Shown here piece by piece: positions 3,275-15,316 of a stretch of DNA of 18,986 nt (within the stretch, counting starts at the first letter, position 1; each line of letters starts with the position of its first letter). The translations under genes and the position numbers were made by a program. Origin of the DNA: Bacteroidales bacterium (GTDB lineage: Bacteria > Bacteroidota > Bacteroidia > Bacteroidales > UBA932); contig JAFZLQ010000089.1 of assembly GCA_017551425.1 (NCBI GenBank), positions 1 through 18,986 on the forward strand, given 5' to 3'. The notes under the pieces are model-generated. The model was not told the origin of the DNA and searched no databases. It worked only from the letters and a program-made list of their open reading frames with translations.

Positions 3275-4216
3275 TCAATTCTTTTTGACTTTCAGCTTCT
3301 CTTTGATCTGGTCGAAGCCCTTGCCATAGACTCCAGTGACGGAAGTGACGGAAAGGAAGGCGTCGGGATCGACGGACTTGATCATCCTGAGCAGCATGCT
3401 CACGTCCGTACGGCGGGTAATGACCATAAGGACCTCGGTGCTCTGCTTGGTGTACCAGCCCTTGCCGTCGAGCACGGTAACGCCGCGGTGGAGATCGGTG
3501 GTAATCATGTCCGCAATCATTTCGTACTTCTTGGAAAGGATGAACAGCTGCACCGACTGGCGGCTGCCGGAGAGATAGAGGTCGAGAACCGTACTGTTGA
3601 TTACCACAAGGATGAAACCGTACACCACCGTGGTAATCTTCTCAGGCCACGGAAGCAGTTCCCCCTCTGCGGTGAACGAAGGGACGAGCAGGGACGACAG
3701 GATTATGACCACGTCCATCCAGAGAATCATCCTTCCCGGTGAGACGTTGCGGTATTTGTTGACGACGAGGGCGACTATGTCCGTACCGCCCGTACTGCCG
3801 CCCTGGGACATCGTCATGCCTATGCCGACGCCGGCGAGGATGGCACCCATGATGGTACTCATCAGCTTACCGTTCTCCACAGCCAGGATCTGGGTGATTT
3901 CCTGGGGAACGACGCCCTGAAGCACGTTGAGCCCCACGGAAGCGACTATAACGGCATACACCGTCTTGCCGCCGAAGGCCTTGCCCAGCGTCAGCATCCC
4001 TATAACCAGCAGGATGGCATTGACGCCGAAGTACACGGTACCTATCTTGATGAAGCCCTTGGTGGCATACTGCACTATGGAAGCCATACCGGAAACACCG
4101 CCGCCGACCAGGTTGTTGGGAATGAGGAAAAGCACCCATGCCATCACGTACATCAGGATGCCGAGCGTGATGATGGAATACTCCTTGAGGAAAACGAAAA
4201 CTGACTTCTTATTCAT
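3275..4216 (-). CDS. YitT family membrane protein (second of the pair)
   Basis: This is a 313-residue inner-membrane protein with the YitT architecture. A multi-helix N-terminal domain (DUF161 repeats, about residues 10-215) contains GGSTGGTD at 139-146. A cytoplasmic C-terminal DUF2179 domain (about 220-308) carries RGVTVLDGKGWYTKQ. The family has no settled function; membrane transport has been suggested. The start ATG overlaps the last codons of the upstream YitT gene by eight bases, so the two are translationally coupled. It is the last gene of the operon that begins at 9733. Signature motifs are at the same residue numbers as in its neighbour, which points to an old tandem duplication, though the sequences have diverged well. 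Confidence 0.9.
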   Translation of the reverse strand: MNKKSVFVFLKEYSIITLGILMYVMAWVLFLIPNNLVGGGVSGMASIVQYATKGFIKIGTVYFGVNAILLVIGMLTLGKAFGGKTVYAVIVASVGLNVLQGVVPQEITQILAVENGKLMSTIMGAILAGVGIGMTMSQGGSTGGTDIVALVVNKYRNVSPGRMILWMDVVIILSSLLVPSFTAEGELLPWPEKITTVVYGFILVVINSTVLDLYLSGSRQSVQLFILSKKYEMIADMITTDLHRGVTVLDGKGWYTKQSTEVLMVITRRTDVSMLLRMIKSVDPDAFLSVTSVTGVYGKGFDQIKEKLKVKKN

Positions 4217-5132
4217 CTTTCTTATGCTTTTTTCTTATGTGGATGCCGGCCTTGATTTCCTCAAAGCCCTCGCCGTAAACGTTATGGGTAGGAGAAACCG
4301 ACATGAAAGCCTTGGGGTCAACGTCCTTGATGGCCCTGGACAGCACAGGGAACTCCTTCTGGTTGATAAGGATGAGGAGCACGTTCTTCTCCTGCTTGGT
4401 GTACCAGCCCTGTGCGTGCAGCACCGTCACTCCCCTCTCTAGGTCGTTGGCGATGTAATCCGCTATCTCCCTGTACTTGTTGGAGAAGACCAGCAGCTGG
4501 TAGGACGATTTCTTACCGCCCACCACGAAATCGATTATCATCATGAAGGTCACGATTTCCACGAGTCCGTAGCATGCGTCGGCGAACACCTTGCCGGGCA
4601 GGAAAAGCAGCAGGGACACCACCACGAAATCCAGGACGAAGAATGCCGCGCTGAGCGACACCGGCCAGAACTTGTTTATCATGATGGCGATTATGTCCGT
4701 ACCGCCCGTGCTGCCGCCGAAACGGATTACGAGACCTATTCCTACGGCTTCCAGAACGCCCGCGATTATGGGGATGAGCAGGGTCTCACGCACGAAGAAA
4801 AACTCGCCGGGGATGCAGTGGAGCGCCGTCATCGACGAAACTATCTCCATCGCGAGAGACGACATGCCGATACAGTACAGGGTCTTGAACCCGAAGCCGA
4901 TTCCCATAGCCAGAACAGCAATCAAGATGAGCAGCACGTTGATGGCTATGTATGAATACTGGGCCTGGATAAGGCCGCCGGTGGCATACTGGATGATGGT
5001 ACAGAGACCCATCATGCCGCCTGCGGACATGCCGTTGGGTATCATGAAGCATTCCCAGGAAACAGCGAACACGAAGCATGCGAATGTGAGGGCCAGATAC
5101 TCCCACACTGTCTTCAGCACCTTGTTTTTCAT
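4209..5132 (-). CDS. YitT family membrane protein (first of the pair)
   Basis: This 307-residue paralogue of the next gene has five or six hydrophobic helices in residues 8-200, GGSTGGTD at 139-146, and a DUF2179 domain from about residue 210 with [15 protein letters not shown] at 233-247. The start was placed at the ATG at 5132 (MKNKVLK...), whose ATGA overlaps the leuS stop. The same frame stays open much further upstream through leuS, but that extension is Arg-rich and low in hydrophobicity, a frame shadow. Overlaps on both sides show it is co-transcribed with leuS and the second YitT gene. The substrate is unknown. Confidence 0.9.
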
Positions 5133-7858
5133 TTTACGACTATATTGACTATCCTTCCGGGTACTACTATTACCTTGACGATCTGCTGCTCTCCCACGTA
5201 TTTGGGCGTGAGTTCCGCGGAACGCACCGCGGCCTCCACTTCCGCAGGCGAAGCGCTGCGCGGCATATCCACTGTGAAACGCATCTTGCCGTTGAACTGC
5301 ACCGGATATGTGACGCTGTCTTCGGCAGCATACGCCGGAATGAACTCGGGGAAGCTTGCGTCCGCTACGGAGCCGTCGTGCCCGAGCCGTTCCCAAAGCT
5401 CTTCCGCCATGTGGGGGGCGAAGGGGCTGAGCAGCACCACGAGAGGCTCCAGGATGGCGCGCTTGCTGCATCCGAGGGCGGTAAGGTCGCTTACAGCTAT
5501 CATGAAGGCGCTCACGGTCGTGTTGTAGGAGAAATGCTCTATGTCTTCCTGTTCCTTGCCGATCAGCTTGTGAAGGGCCTTGAGCTCGTCGCGGGTGGGT
5601 TCTTCGTCGGTCACCAGCCACTGGTCTCTGTTCCAGAACAGGCGCCAGAACTTCTTGAAGAAGCGGTTCACGCCGTCTATGCCCTTGGTATCCCATGGCT
5701 TGCTCTGCTCCACCGGCCCGAGGAACATCTCGTAAAGGCGGAGGGTATCGGCGCCGTAAGTGTCGCAGATGAGATCCGGATTGACGACGTTGTACATCGA
5801 CTTGCTCATCTTCTCCACCGCCCATCCGCAGCGGTACTCGCCGTCTTCGAGCACGAATTCGGCGTCTGCGAACTCGGGACGCCATGCGCGGAAAGCATCC
5901 AGGTCGAGCCTGTCGGCATTGACTATATTCACGTCAACGTGTATCTCGGTGGTCTCGTACCGGTCCTTGAGGCCGACGGAGACGAAGCTGTTGGTCCCAA
6001 CGATGCGGTAAACGAAGTTGGAACGGCCCTGGATCATGCCCTGGTTGACCAGCTTGCGGAAAGGCTCGTCTTCGCAGACGTATCCGAGGTCGAAGAGGAA
6101 CTTGTTCCAGAAGCGGGAATAGATGAGGTGGCCCGTAGCATGCTCGGTACCGCCCACGTACAGATCGACCGAACGCCAGTAATCGTTTGCCTCGCGGCTT
6201 ACGAGGGCCTCGCTGTTGCGGGGATCCATATATCTCAGATAGTATGCGCTGGAGCCTGCGAAACCGGGCATGGTGGAAGTCTCGAGGGGATACCCGTGCC
6301 ATGTCCAATTCTCCGCGCGGGCGAGAGGCGGCTCGCCGGTAGGCTTGTAGGAGCTGATCTCCGGCAGGCGCAGCGGCAGCTCGCTCTCCGGAAGCGGGTG
6401 CGGGATGCCGTCTTTGTAATATATGGGGAAAGGCTCGCCCCAGTAGCGCTGGCGGGAGAAGATGGCGTCGCGCAGGCGCCAGTTGGTCTTGCGCCTGCCC
6501 AGGCCCTTCTCCTCCACATAATCCTTTGCGGCCTCGATGGCCTGCTTCACGTCCATGCCGTTCAGGAAGCCGGAGTTGCACATCTTACCTTCCTTGGCGT
6601 CGAAAGACTCCTCGCTCACGTCGCAGCCCTCGATGATGGGGACGATGGGGAGGCCGAACTTCTTTGCGAACGCATAGTCACGGCTGTCGTGGGCCGGCAC
6701 CGCCATGATGGCGCCCGTACCGTACCCGGCCAGGACATATTCGGAGATCCAGATGGGAATCTTTTCACCGGTAAGGGGATTTATGCCGTAAGCTCCTGAG
6801 AATACGCCCGTTACGGATTTGGTCTCGGCTATTCTCTCACGCTCGGTCTTCTTTGCGACCTCCTTGAGGTAGGCGGCAACGGCCTCCTTGCGGTCGGCGG
6901 AAGTCAGCTCGTCCACCAGTTCGCTTTCGGGAGCGAGCACCATGAAGGTAACCCCGAAAATGGTATCCACGCGGGTGGTGAAGATGGTTATCGCTTTCTC
7001 GCGTCCGTCGCAAACGGTATTGAAAACCACCTCGGTACCGTCGGAACGGCCTATCCAGTTGCGCTGCATCTCCTTAAGGGAATCGCTCCAGTCGAGCGAC
7101 TCCAGGGAATCCAGCAGGCGCGCGGCATAAGCCGATACGCGCAGCTGCCACTGGGTCATCTTCTTCTGCTCGACGGGGAATCCGCCGCGTACGCTCAGGC
7201 CGTCCTTCACCTCGTCGTTGGCCAGCACCGTGCCAAGGCCCTCGCACCAGTTAACGGAGGTTTCTCCCTGATATGCAATACGATAGCGCATCAGTATGTC
7301 GGACTTTTCTTTTTCTGACGCCGCGGCCCAGAGCTCCGGGGTGACGTCTTCATATCCGGTGGTCTCGAAGCGCTTGACAAGCTCCTCGATGGGACGGGCC
7401 TTGTCTGCCTGAGGATCGTACCAGCTGCCGAACATCTTGAGGAAAGCCCACTGAGTCCACTTGTAATACTCGGGATCGCAGGTGCGGATCTCGCGGTCCC
7501 AGTCGTAGCAGAAACCTATCCTGTCCAGCTGGGAGCGGTAGCGGGCTATGTTGTCGGTAGTGGTTTTCTCCGGGTGCTGGCCCGTCTGGATGGCGTACTG
7601 CTCGGCGGGAAGGCCGAAGGCGTCGTAGCCCATGGGATGCAGCACGTTGAAGCCCTTGAGGCGCTTGTACCGGGAATAAATGTCACTTGCGATGTAGCCG
7701 AGGGGATGTCCTACGTGAAGTCCCGCCCCGGAAGGGTAAGGGAACATGTCGAGGACGTAATACTTGGGCCTGGAGGGGTCCTGAACAGCCTTGTAGGTCT
7801 TATTCTCCGCCCATCGGGCCTGCCACTTGCTTTCGATTGACTTGAAATCGTAATCCAT
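5129..7858 (-). CDS. leuS: Leucyl-tRNA synthetase
   Basis: This cytoplasmic class Ia synthetase charges tRNA-Leu with leucine. It is 909 residues, slightly longer than the E. coli enzyme. The ATP-binding HIGH-type motif is HVGH at residues 48-51, after PYPSGAGL. The KMSKS loop is at 683-687. Between them lie the CP1 editing domain (roughly residues 220-420) and, just before KMSKS, an insertion including [20 protein letters not shown] and ending YRCGWAVE, which I associate with Bacteroidetes LeuRS. The C-terminal anticodon-binding and tRNA-contact domains follow. The start ATG is six bases after the stop of the M28-like/TonB-C gene, so leuS lies mid-operon, an unusual place with two envelope genes in front and two membrane proteins behind. 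Its expression probably depends on the promoter at 9740-9747 unless an internal one exists. Confidence 0.98.
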
Positions 7859-7864
7859 ATATCT

Positions 7865-9193
7865 TTATTTTTTCTTTTCCAGACGGAATTCCACGTTCAG
7901 GGACATCTGAGCCTTGACCTTCCTGCCGTTTACACGCCCCGGTTTCCAGTCGGGGGACGCCTTTATCACCCTCAGCGCCTCTTCCTCGAGCAGCGGGTGC
8001 GAACTGCGGACCGCCCTGACAGAAGTGACGCGGCCCTTCTCGTCGATTATGAAATCCACGAGAACACGTCCCTGGATGCCGTTTGCGATGGCTTCGCGGG
8101 GGTAGCGCAGGTACACGTAAACCCATTTCTGAAGGAACACCGCAGGGTCCGGACTGCCAAGGAAAGTGGGTTTGGCGTCGCACTCATAATAAGGCACGAC
8201 TCCCGCATTGTCGGCGAGATACTGTTCTTTGACCGAATCCGAAGGGTTGAACTCCGGAGCGGGGCGGCCGGCCAGTTCCACAACGTAGTTGTATATGTAT
8301 TCCACTTCCCTCTCCATCCAGTCGTACTCCAGGACGGAAGGGGTGTCGCGGTCTGTATTGTATTCGGGATACATGCCCGTGGTGAACATGACGGAAGGTA
8401 TCTTGCGGTCGTAGAACATGCGGTGGTCGGCAGGACAGGGTTCGGGAGCCACCACCTTGGGATGCACAGGCTGGAGCGTCCCGGCGAGGGAAGTCGCAAT
8501 CGCGTTCATATCGGCATTGGATGCCGTGAAGGCATAGAATCCGGAAGATCCTGTGCCCAGCATCTCCAGTTCCACGGCGGCCTCGATATTTCCGGCGTCC
8601 GCAAAAGAACGGTTGAGGAAATACCACGAACCCGCACATTCGGGCACGGAAGCGCCGAATGCGGCGAGTATGACGGAACGCCCGAGAAGCACCCGGTTGG
8701 TGACGAGGCGCTCTGCGAGCTGCAGCAGCATGGCCAGGCCGGAGGCGTTGCCGTTGGCCCCATAGAAAACCTTTGTAACCGGCTCGCCGTCAACGGTGTA
8801 GGTAAGGGGAGCCAGATTGTCGAGACGGGCGTGGATAACGACGTATTTGTCTTTGAGCTTGCTGTCGGAGCCGGGGATGAATGCGGCGACATTATGCGAG
8901 CGCAAGGTGTCACCGTTTTCGCGGCGCATGCCGAAGAGGTCTCCGTCCGTCCCCGCATAAAGCAGGTCCGCACCGGTCTCCTGCAGGCGCCGGGACATGT
9001 AGCGGGCAGCCTCGAGCTCGCCTTCCGACCCCGCCGCACGTCCCTCCAGGGCTGCAGAAGCGAGATAGGAAACGTCTTCCTTCATGGCGCGCACCATGTC
9101 GCTGTCGTTGAGATCGGAATAAGACGGCGTGCGGTACTGCGCCGATGCGATCAGCGGCAGCAGAATGGCGGCGAGTACGGCAAGCTTCTTCAT
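7865..9193 (-). CDS. Secreted M28-peptidase-like pseudoenzyme fused to a TonB C-terminal domain
   Basis: The 442-residue product has a Sec signal peptide (1-19, MKKLAVLAAILLPLIASAQ), an M28-type zinc aminopeptidase fold (about 34-308) and a TonB C-terminal domain (about 361-438, from YLRYPREAIANGIQGRVLVD to SLNVEFRL). The M28 scaffold motifs are recognisable but the active site is gone. The zinc His of AHxD is R123. The bridging Asp of GADDNASG falls in the pair N147-G148, in GANGNASG. The catalytic and ligand Glu pair of GAEE is S182-V183. The ligand Asp of NLDMVG is E210. The last ligand His of DYHTP is N279. Substrate binding or scaffolding is therefore more likely than proteolysis. The TonB domain suggests contact with outer-membrane transporters or periplasmic partners, although no membrane anchor remains after cleavage. 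It starts three bases after the SPOR lipoprotein stop. Confidence 0.85.
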   Translation of the reverse strand: MKKLAVLAAILLPLIASAQYRTPSYSDLNDSDMVRAMKEDVSYLASAALEGRAAGSEGELEAARYMSRRLQETGADLLYAGTDGDLFGMRRENGDTLRSHNVAAFIPGSDSKLKDKYVVIHARLDNLAPLTYTVDGEPVTKVFYGANGNASGLAMLLQLAERLVTNRVLLGRSVILAAFGASVPECAGSWYFLNRSFADAGNIEAAVELEMLGTGSSGFYAFTASNADMNAIATSLAGTLQPVHPKVVAPEPCPADHRMFYDRKIPSVMFTTGMYPEYNTDRDTPSVLEYDWMEREVEYIYNYVVELAGRPAPEFNPSDSVKEQYLADNAGVVPYYECDAKPTFLGSPDPAVFLQKWVYVYLRYPREAIANGIQGRVLVDFIIDEKGRVTSVRAVRSSHPLLEEEALRVIKASPDWKPGRVNGRKVKAQMSLNVEFRLEKKK

Positions 9194-9196
9194 AAT

Positions 9197-9733
9197 CTAT
9201 TCATTTACAAGCACCCACACTTCCCTGGGTCCGCCGGGCATCTGCCTGAAGCTGCGGTACGATACGAGGGCATCCGCCACTTTGTCGCAGGGAGATACCA
9301 GCACTGCCGAGAGGGTGCTGCGGTATCTGAGCACGTATGCGTCATAACCGGCGGCTTTATATCTGGCAACGAGCCTTTCCGCATTGGGCAGGCTGGAGAA
9401 TACGCCCACTACGAGGGCGTAACGGCTGCGCAGGCGCGACTGGGGGATGTTCACATAGGCTGATGCCTTGTGGTACTTGCCTATGTGAATGAGGGTGTCA
9501 AGCGCATGGAGCGAATCGTCCACGGCACGCTGTACCGCTGCGGCGGAATCAAGACGCGCCCGGTTGATGGAGTCCCTGACGGCGGCTGCATGCAGCTCCC
9601 GCTTCTCGATGCGTGCACGCTTTGCCTCTATCTGGGCCGACGTGGGCCGGCCTGCGAGCGTACGGAAGAAGTCGCACCCGCCGGCAAGGCAGAGGAGCAT
9701 GACGAATGCAAATACTGTAGTCAGTTTCTTCAT
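9197..9733 (-). CDS. SPOR-domain lipoprotein
   Basis: This 178-residue envelope protein has a lipoprotein signal: MKKLTTVFAFVMLLCLAGGC, with lipobox cysteine C20. A charged, alanine-rich helical stretch follows (about 31-72, possibly coiled coil). A C-terminal SPOR domain (about 104-176, RYALVVGVFSSLPNAERL ... EVWVLV) ends the protein. SPOR domains bind peptidoglycan strands lacking stem peptides, often at division sites, so the protein probably sits on the periplasmic face of a membrane and touches the cell wall. It is first in the operon leading to leuS and the YitT pair. A -7 box TAATTTTG (9747-9740) ends six bases before its ATG. The exact role is unknown. Confidence 0.88.
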   Translation of the reverse strand: MKKLTTVFAFVMLLCLAGGCDFFRTLAGRPTSAQIEAKRARIEKRELHAAAVRDSINRARLDSAAAVQRAVDDSLHALDTLIHIGKYHKASAYVNIPQSRLRSRYALVVGVFSSLPNAERLVARYKAAGYDAYVLRYRSTLSAVLVSPCDKVADALVSYRSFRQMPGGPREVWVLVNE

Positions 9734-14717: not shown

Positions 14718-14740
14718 ATAATAATTTGCGGAATTTTGTG

Positions 14741-14749
14741 CATCTTTGC
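14741..14749 (+). promoter_or_regulatory. Probable -7 box of the Clp N-domain gene
   Basis: CATCTTTGC matches TAnnTTTGC except for the first T. Its TTTG (14745-14748) ends four bases before the ATG at 14753, implying a leaderless transcript. It lies 24 bases beyond the divergent gyrA box, so the two promoters probably compete or are co-regulated. Confidence 0.45.
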
Positions 14750-14752
14750 GTC

Positions 14753-15316
14753 ATGGAATTACGCTTTTCCGACGAATTTCTCAAGGCCCTCGAACTCAGC
14801 CGCAGCGAGGCCCTGCGCACCGGTTGGCACAACATACGTCCAGACCATATAACACTTGGGATCCTGCGCCTCGACGGCTGCCTTGCATGTAAGGTCCTGG
14901 ACCGCGCGGGCGCCTGCCGCGAGGCCTTCAAGGAGCGGCTGGACGAACGCCTTTTCCACCCCGAGCAGATACCCTGGGAAGACCGGGAAAGCATACAGCC
15001 CTGCGAGAATGCGGTCACCATGCTGCAGCACGCCGCGCTGGAGGCCCGCCGTTGCGGCACCCCCGTCATCGAGCCCCTTCATTTCCTGCTGGCATGCCGC
15101 CGCGTTCCAGGCAGCTGCAGCCACGACTGGCTGGAAGAACAGGGCATAAGACTGCGTGCCCTGGTAGAGGCCGCCGGCCTGGACTGGGACAGCTACGGGC
15201 TGGCCCCTTCCGCTGCGGAAAACGAAGCTGCGGCCCCTGATCCGTCAATCATGGCCGCAGCAATCGAACAGCGTCTGCGCGAAGGCTACACCACAGGCAA
15301 CCCGCACGTCAGTTAA
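14753..15316 (+). CDS. Stand-alone Clp N-terminal-domain protein (no AAA+ module)
   Basis: The 187-residue protein consists of a double Clp N repeat and little else. Repeat 1 covers about residues 5-52 (FSDEFLKALELSRSEALRTG, PDHITLGILR). Repeat 2 covers about 83-133 (PCENAVTMLQHAALEARRCG, IEPLHFLLACR). A charged tail to residue 187 contains no Walker motifs, M domain or ClpP-loop. In ClpA/ClpC this N domain docks substrates and adaptors, so a free copy may act as an adaptor, decoy or regulator of a Clp ATPase elsewhere. Seven cysteines (43, 46, 55, 84, 101, 115, 122) are many for its size. The ATG at 14753 was preferred over an upstream in-frame TTG at 14726, because the latter lies before the promoter box. 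It stops nine bases from the convergent nucleoside phosphorylase. Confidence 0.82.
   Translation: MELRFSDEFLKALELSRSEALRTGWHNIRPDHITLGILRLDGCLACKVLDRAGACREAFKERLDERLFHPEQIPWEDRESIQPCENAVTMLQHAALEARRCGTPVIEPLHFLLACRRVPGSCSHDWLEEQGIRLRALVEAAGLDWDSYGLAPSAAENEAAAPDPSIMAAAIEQRLREGYTTGNPHVS

Follow-up and report, generated by a model that had tools for sequence, protein, structure and literature searches.

The 18,986-nucleotide stretch of DNA analyzed here (the window), which comes from a gut bacterium of the Bacteroidales, encodes, at positions 7865..9193 on the reverse strand, a 442-residue protein that joins an M28 aminopeptidase fold to a C-terminal TonB_C domain and in which all six metal-binding and catalytic positions are altered. 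Its orthologues occupy one chromosomal locus, where the site is complete in some species and broken in most of those sampled, and the site appears from these sequences to have been inactivated several times within one bacterial family. We put at roughly two in three the probability that the protein is a secreted, probably periplasmic pseudopeptidase belonging to a fused family whose role needs no catalysis, so that the di-zinc site was lost repeatedly.

A replaced active site on a conserved M28 scaffold

The gene opens with ATG, and its assignment follows from the open reading frame, Pfam and an AlphaFold2 model (mean predicted local distance difference test score, pLDDT, 87; predicted template modelling score, pTM, 0.68). 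By fold as well as by sequence profile the protein is a homologue of the M28 family. The M28 fold spans residues 31-312 (8258..9103, reverse strand), within which Pfam Peptidase_M28 matches residues 101-301 at 70.9 bits (cut-off 21.3). The site register was taken from HMMER-printed alignments to solved M28 enzymes, and every site state reported here was read from sequence in that register.

The di-zinc aminopeptidases of this family, among them the Vibrio/Aeromonas leucyl aminopeptidase (1amp) and the enzymes of S. griseus (1cp7), B. subtilis (BSAP, 6hc7) and Aneurinibacillus (2ek8), differ from the window protein at all six positions and in lacking its TonB_C domain. Instead of the ligand set His, Asp, Glu, Asp, His, the window protein has R123, G148, V183, E210 and N279, and the general-base Glu is replaced by S182. 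The change at 210 is the mild one, and E210 alone could still be a ligand. The original prediction named these same substitutions, and the alignments place each of them, with one amendment to the pair N147-G148 that it had set against an Asp-Asp motif. The structure 3b3t, by its title the D118N mutant of the Vibrio enzyme, carries its altered letter at the third residue of a D-D-D run; G148 aligns one residue before that letter, with D117, the bridging zinc ligand. N147 instead aligns with D116, which is not known to be a ligand.

Conservation was counted in 154 relatives, comprising 120 listed proteins (the window included; the best 120 of 3258 homologues, and thus no census) and 34 of 36 genome-contig loci, the two cut at contig ends being excluded and L028 entering by its longer frame only. 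At the first zinc-ligand His, the H of 'HxD', R123 (8825..8827, reverse strand, as for all site codons) is present in 152 of the 154. The bridging Asp is replaced by Gly at G148 (8750..8752) in 147 and by Ser in 6. At the E-E pair formed by the catalytic Glu and a zinc-ligand Glu, S182-V183 (8645..8650), S182 recurs in 153 and position 183 is variable. At E210 (8564..8566), the zinc-ligand Asp of the 'LDM' stretch, relatives carry D (76), N (51), E (26) or Y (1), and at N279 (8357..8359), the zinc-ligand His of 'YHT', Asn is found in 143.

Earlier conservation percentiles at 123, 148 and 182 were set aside, the rows having been chosen by those very letters, and the count was repeated on 54 relatives less than 80% identical to one another and chosen by similarity rather than by site letters. 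R123 is kept in 52, G148 in 53, S182 in 53 and N279 in 46 of these rows, and the replacements are therefore far from chance. In the window's clade, then, new residues have become fixed at four of the positions that once held ligands, position 183 drifts, and 210, not uniformly lost, is D in 27 and E in 13 of the 54. D256, H257, E277 and D283 are each present in 52 or 53 rows. This pattern suggests that the former active site became a new conserved polar pocket (R123, G148, S182, N279), which may serve as a ligand site.

The TonB_C domain and the N-terminus

Pfam TonB_C matches residues 361-438 (7880..8113, reverse strand) at 74.1 bits (cut-off 24.6), NCBIfam TIGR01352 also matches at 49.2 bits against a cut-off of 27.1, and phmmer aligns the domain with solved TonB chains, for example 5lw8. 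At the other end the protein begins with hydrophobic residues followed by A-Q; residues 1-18 (9140..9193, reverse strand) read as a probable cleavable signal peptide, the model places a helix at residues 2-19, and Q19 is conserved in at least 90% of relatives. The layout first proposed, a signal peptide and a TonB-C domain on an M28 scaffold, is thus borne out for the TonB_C domain and probable for the signal peptide.

TonB energy transducers, as described in one source (PMC12204202), have an N-terminal transmembrane anchor with an S-H-L-S motor motif and a periplasm-spanning region. The window protein shares their TonB_C domain above both database cut-offs, but its N-terminus resembles a cleavable signal peptide, and a reading of the sequence by eye finds no S-H-L-S (SxHxLxS) motif, no proline-rich spanner (the linker at 313-330 is not proline-rich) and no membrane anchor besides the presumed signal peptide. 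It therefore looks unlike an ordinary TonB. The protein is probably secreted, with a periplasmic location, and since no further anchor is visible its TonB_C is probably a docking domain. That it docks on a TonB-dependent transporter or another envelope partner is a guess drawn from the usual roles of TonB_C. In the original prediction the protein could be a peptide- or protein-binding module that engages outer-membrane transporters. Proteins of this type carry the source name 'TonB family protein'.

Intact and broken orthologues in one family

Fused genes were collected in a family sample of 149 genomes; a second family sample largely repeated the first, both centres being in one family (G136, G234 and G018 all belong to it). 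Candidatus Cryptobacteroides, to which L008 of the window's clade is assigned, would belong to this family as well. The named loci come mostly from metagenome assemblies. There are 91 near-full-length two-domain places in 91 of the 149 genomes, one in each; no sampled family genome has two. We analyzed 90 of them, leaving out G435, which is cut at a contig end. Of 15 unfused places ten were used, and neither G451 of the repeat sample nor five partial matches entered the set. In G346 a second, shorter match (G346:C188:3967-4902) stands beside the two-domain copy and scores 347 bits to the fused family, well above unfused relatives. The genome from which the window comes could carry another copy with an intact site outside this stretch.

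The site is complete in 17 of the 90 loci and incomplete in 73, and the catalytic Glu is absent from 71. The number of altered positions runs through the whole range: none in 17 loci, one in 3, two in 6, three in 21, four in 21, five in 16 and six in 6. D125, the Asp of the His-x-Asp motif, is conserved in all 90. Judged from their sequences, the intact-looking orthologues would be catalytically active. A uniform loss of the ligand positions across proteins of this layout, one of the outcomes on which the original prediction was to be checked, is ruled out by the 17 intact loci, the ligands having been lost in some lineages only. Orthologues with a complete site at this locus, and more than one apparent inactivation, had not been anticipated in that prediction.

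The searches of an order-wide sample (295 genomes, centre G003) and a phylum-wide sample (395 genomes, centre G234) scored at most about five candidates per genome and count the centre genome itself, so the numbers of full two-domain proteins, at least 4 of 295 genomes (G003 included) and at least 1 of 395 (G234 alone), are lower bounds. Two of the four order-wide proteins are unlike that of the window: L070 keeps the His, the Asp, the second Glu and the second Asp, with Ser at the catalytic Glu, and L069 has Asn at a ligand His and Lys at the catalytic Glu. L070 used as query returned 120 further two-domain proteins (the best 120 of 1515 homologues), and the site is complete in 41 of the 240 proteins listed from this and the earlier search (best 120 of 3258). 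Among unfused M28 relatives the site is complete in the 10 analyzed in the family, in the two closest from elsewhere in the phylum and in 15 outgroup rows.

Positional orthology

In the window the fused gene lies, by one count, 7 bases from an upstream gene for a SPOR-domain protein (9197..9733, reverse strand; Pfam SPOR 24.9 bits; a lipobox-like start, LAGGC, by eye) and 10 bases from the downstream leucyl-tRNA synthetase gene leuS (5129..7858, reverse strand; TIGR00396 leuS_bact, 923 bits against 548), which served as the syntenic anchor. A leuS start at most 600 bases downstream on the same strand was scored as in place, only loci with room were counted, and the broken set was enlarged by the 36 genome-contig loci, two of them too short for a whole-site reading. 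By this measure leuS is in place at all 17 intact loci and at 92 of the 107 broken ones, the SPOR gene lies upstream at 16 of 17 and 89 of 104, and gcvT lies upstream at 17 of 17 and 54 of 104; leuS is in the same place at none of nine unfused loci with room. Because this leuS, SPOR and gcvT neighbourhood is common to both, we regard the intact and broken copies as positional orthologues.

At 15 broken loci leuS is not in place. Eleven of them (L160, L162, L165, L166, L168, L171, L175, L183, L185, L188 and L197) make up a single clade, in which the fused gene is followed downstream by an inverted leuS-YitT block. This clade is of the His-Ala-Gly type, and its last His is replaced by Gln or Tyr. 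In the window, tandem genes for YitT-type membrane proteins with DUF2179 ends (3275-4216 and 4209-5885, reverse strand) lie downstream of leuS; the second, as listed, overlaps leuS at its start.

No match to the fused gene at 1e-60 was found in 47 sampled family genomes, and leuS is present in 19 of the 20 of these that were checked. The stretches upstream of leuS in 15 such genomes (11 of them at least 2.5 kb long) hold no match at 1e-4 to the M28-TonB_C gene, gcvT or the SPOR protein. Since gcvT and the SPOR protein are missing from these stretches along with the fused gene, the whole neighbourhood differs there, and a clean series of simple gene deletions is ruled out.

Apparent repeated loss under purifying selection

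Trees were built without the six ligand columns, and more than one change of state is computed on them. The fused proteins group together in a single clade (109 rows). On a 125-row tree at least eight changes between intact and broken are required, and at least seven for the catalytic Glu; counting losses only gives 11 for the site and 10 for the catalytic Glu. A careful 65-row tree requires seven changes, and forcing its 49 broken rows into one clade costs 278 log units (approximately unbiased test, p-AU 1e-7), which rules out a single broken clade. Several deep forks are weakly supported, so the number of losses is approximate. The sets of replacements vary by lineage and thus fit independent events. 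We infer that the changes are losses and not regains, as a regain would often need several residues to be rebuilt.

The ratio of nonsynonymous to synonymous change (dN/dS, NG86) in the M28 part is 0.013-0.187 (median 0.061) over 25 broken pairs above 80% identity, one of which (L025-L034) includes a partial sequence, and 0.047-0.067 over three intact pairs; in the TonB_C part it is 0.021-0.182 over the 28 pairs. The values are rough in some pairs because synonymous change is near saturation. For the window and L001 they are 0.066 (M28) and 0.057 (TonB_C). The gene is accordingly under purifying selection, with the M28 part about as constrained in broken as in intact pairs. Pseudogene decay is ruled out by this low dN/dS and by a single open frame in 33 of the 36 genome-contig loci; of the other three, two (L032, L034) are truncated where their contigs end and L028 is in two frames. 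Catalytic residues are lost, the fold is kept in the model, the replacements are conserved in the clade and the locus is syntenic, and on these grounds the proposal of a maintained pseudoenzyme rather than decay is supported.

Proposed history and competing explanations

We suggest that, among the ancestors of one Bacteroidales family, a TonB_C domain was added to the C-terminus of an M28 aminopeptidase and that the fusion gene became established at the SPOR-(gcvT)-leuS locus. Its product would then have acquired a non-catalytic role, perhaps as a binder or scaffold that works through its M28 surface or pocket, with TonB_C acting as a docking module on a periplasmic protein rather than as part of an energised TonB. 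This function would be older than the inactivations, and catalysis an accessory that many lineages dropped: because the non-catalytic role sufficed, separate lineages could each lose the di-zinc site yet retain the fold, the gene and its locus, and in the window's clade the old site would then have turned into the conserved polar pocket. A more specific version, which we offer tentatively and would not bet on, makes the protein a new kind of envelope adaptor whose main function is non-catalytic even in lineages with an intact site. In the window's clade the R123/S182/N279 pocket, rebuilt from the dead active site, would bind selectively, its ligand being perhaps anionic or the end of a peptide; TonB_C would present the ligand to TonB-dependent transporters or couple to the Ton machinery without an anchor of its own.

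Several observations weigh against repeated inactivation of a fused protein that needs no chemistry. Several ligands persist in many broken lineages (H123, E183 and D210 in the HDAGEDDHR type), so that a one-metal or altered activity is possible there, and position 210 remains D in half of the window's clade. Erosion in that clade goes further in L030, which lacks the stretch around residues 124-148 in an open frame (L030 6001-7149), and the L028 gene (2111-3320) is split over two frames, whether as a decaying copy or through an assembly error. The intact unfused rows were picked as best profile matches, a choice that favours ordinary sites. The same genomes also encode five M28-like proteins that are more distant and unfused (L045, L046, L053, L055 and L061; open frames of 293-392 residues, no TonB_C), and these lack most ligands: in all five the bridging Asp is Ser or Ala, the catalytic Glu is Lys, Arg or His and the last His is Asn, and in three the first His is Tyr or Ala. 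Inactivation is therefore not special to the TonB_C fusion, and its confinement to fused proteins is ruled out. These five may be another pseudoenzyme group or a glutaminyl-cyclase-like one.

The eroded look of L030 and L028, the many replacement patterns that differ between lineages and the variable position 183 would also fit a gradual relaxation. In that case the peptidase would no longer have been needed, and the M28 part would survive just as a passive spacer, or as a folding aid for TonB_C, that binds no ligand itself. We consider this unlikely, given that dN/dS of the M28 part is about equally low in the broken and the three intact pairs and that, in the window's clade, new residues are fixed at four of the old ligand positions (52, 53, 53 and 46 of 54). 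The near invariance of R123, N149 and S182, with D125, D256 and H257, could instead mark a different, metal-free active site that also includes N279, itself Asn in only 46 of 54 rows. Such new catalysis is improbable: all 16 unfused rows compared have Asp at both 125 and 256, and His stands at 257 in 6 of 15 and 5 of 10 unfused rows, so these three need no new role. Least credible of all is a protein that is still a metallopeptidase using other ligands. The retention of D256, H257, E277 and D283 across the clade and of D (27) or E (13) at 210 in its 54 rows would suit it, but H123, D148, E182 and H279, the bridging Asp and the general base included, are gone in essentially the whole clade, and all 16 unfused rows carry D256 and D283, neither of which is known to be a ligand.

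Relation to known systems and significance

Transferrin receptor 1 and other non-catalytic M28 homologues are pseudoenzymes as well; these animal membrane receptors have different domains added to the fold and are not known to carry TonB_C. In structural comparison transferrin receptor 1 matches the M28 fold of the window protein. A likeness in evolutionary pattern is that of the fungal pseudonucleases Dis3L2/Ssd1, described in one source (PMC8097288) as having lost the active site at least four times while keeping a second, non-catalytic function; Dis3L2/Ssd1 is a eukaryotic RNA-binding protein of unrelated fold and process. The main text of a review of inactive metallopeptidase homologues (PMC11266112) does not mention M28, transferrin receptor, nicastrin, nicalin or TonB, and among the best-ranked literature matches, whose coverage excludes most subscription journals, no paper on M28-TonB_C fusions or their inactivation was found. 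Animal M28 pseudoenzymes and the pattern of repeated loss are thus known; the combination of an M28 pseudoenzyme with TonB_C and the alternation of intact and broken sites at one bacterial locus appear to be new.

Elsewhere in the window, at 14726-15316 on the forward strand, a stand-alone 196-residue protein has Clp_N as its sole Pfam match (29.1 bits), without the ATPase part.

It is common for a pseudoenzyme to be found as a duplicate alongside its active parent. Here the site at a single orthologous locus is complete in some species but broken in most of the sampled ones, and it appears to have been inactivated several times in one family. With anything from six intact positions to none, the locus offers a natural series in which to ask what allows catalysis to be dispensed with. 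In these bacteria, peptidase activity should not be deduced from a Pfam M28 assignment. The pattern points to a hidden second function in a protein named 'TonB family protein': because the site residues seem to have been lost several times independently at the same chromosomal spot, it suggests that the main job of the fused protein needs no peptidase chemistry.
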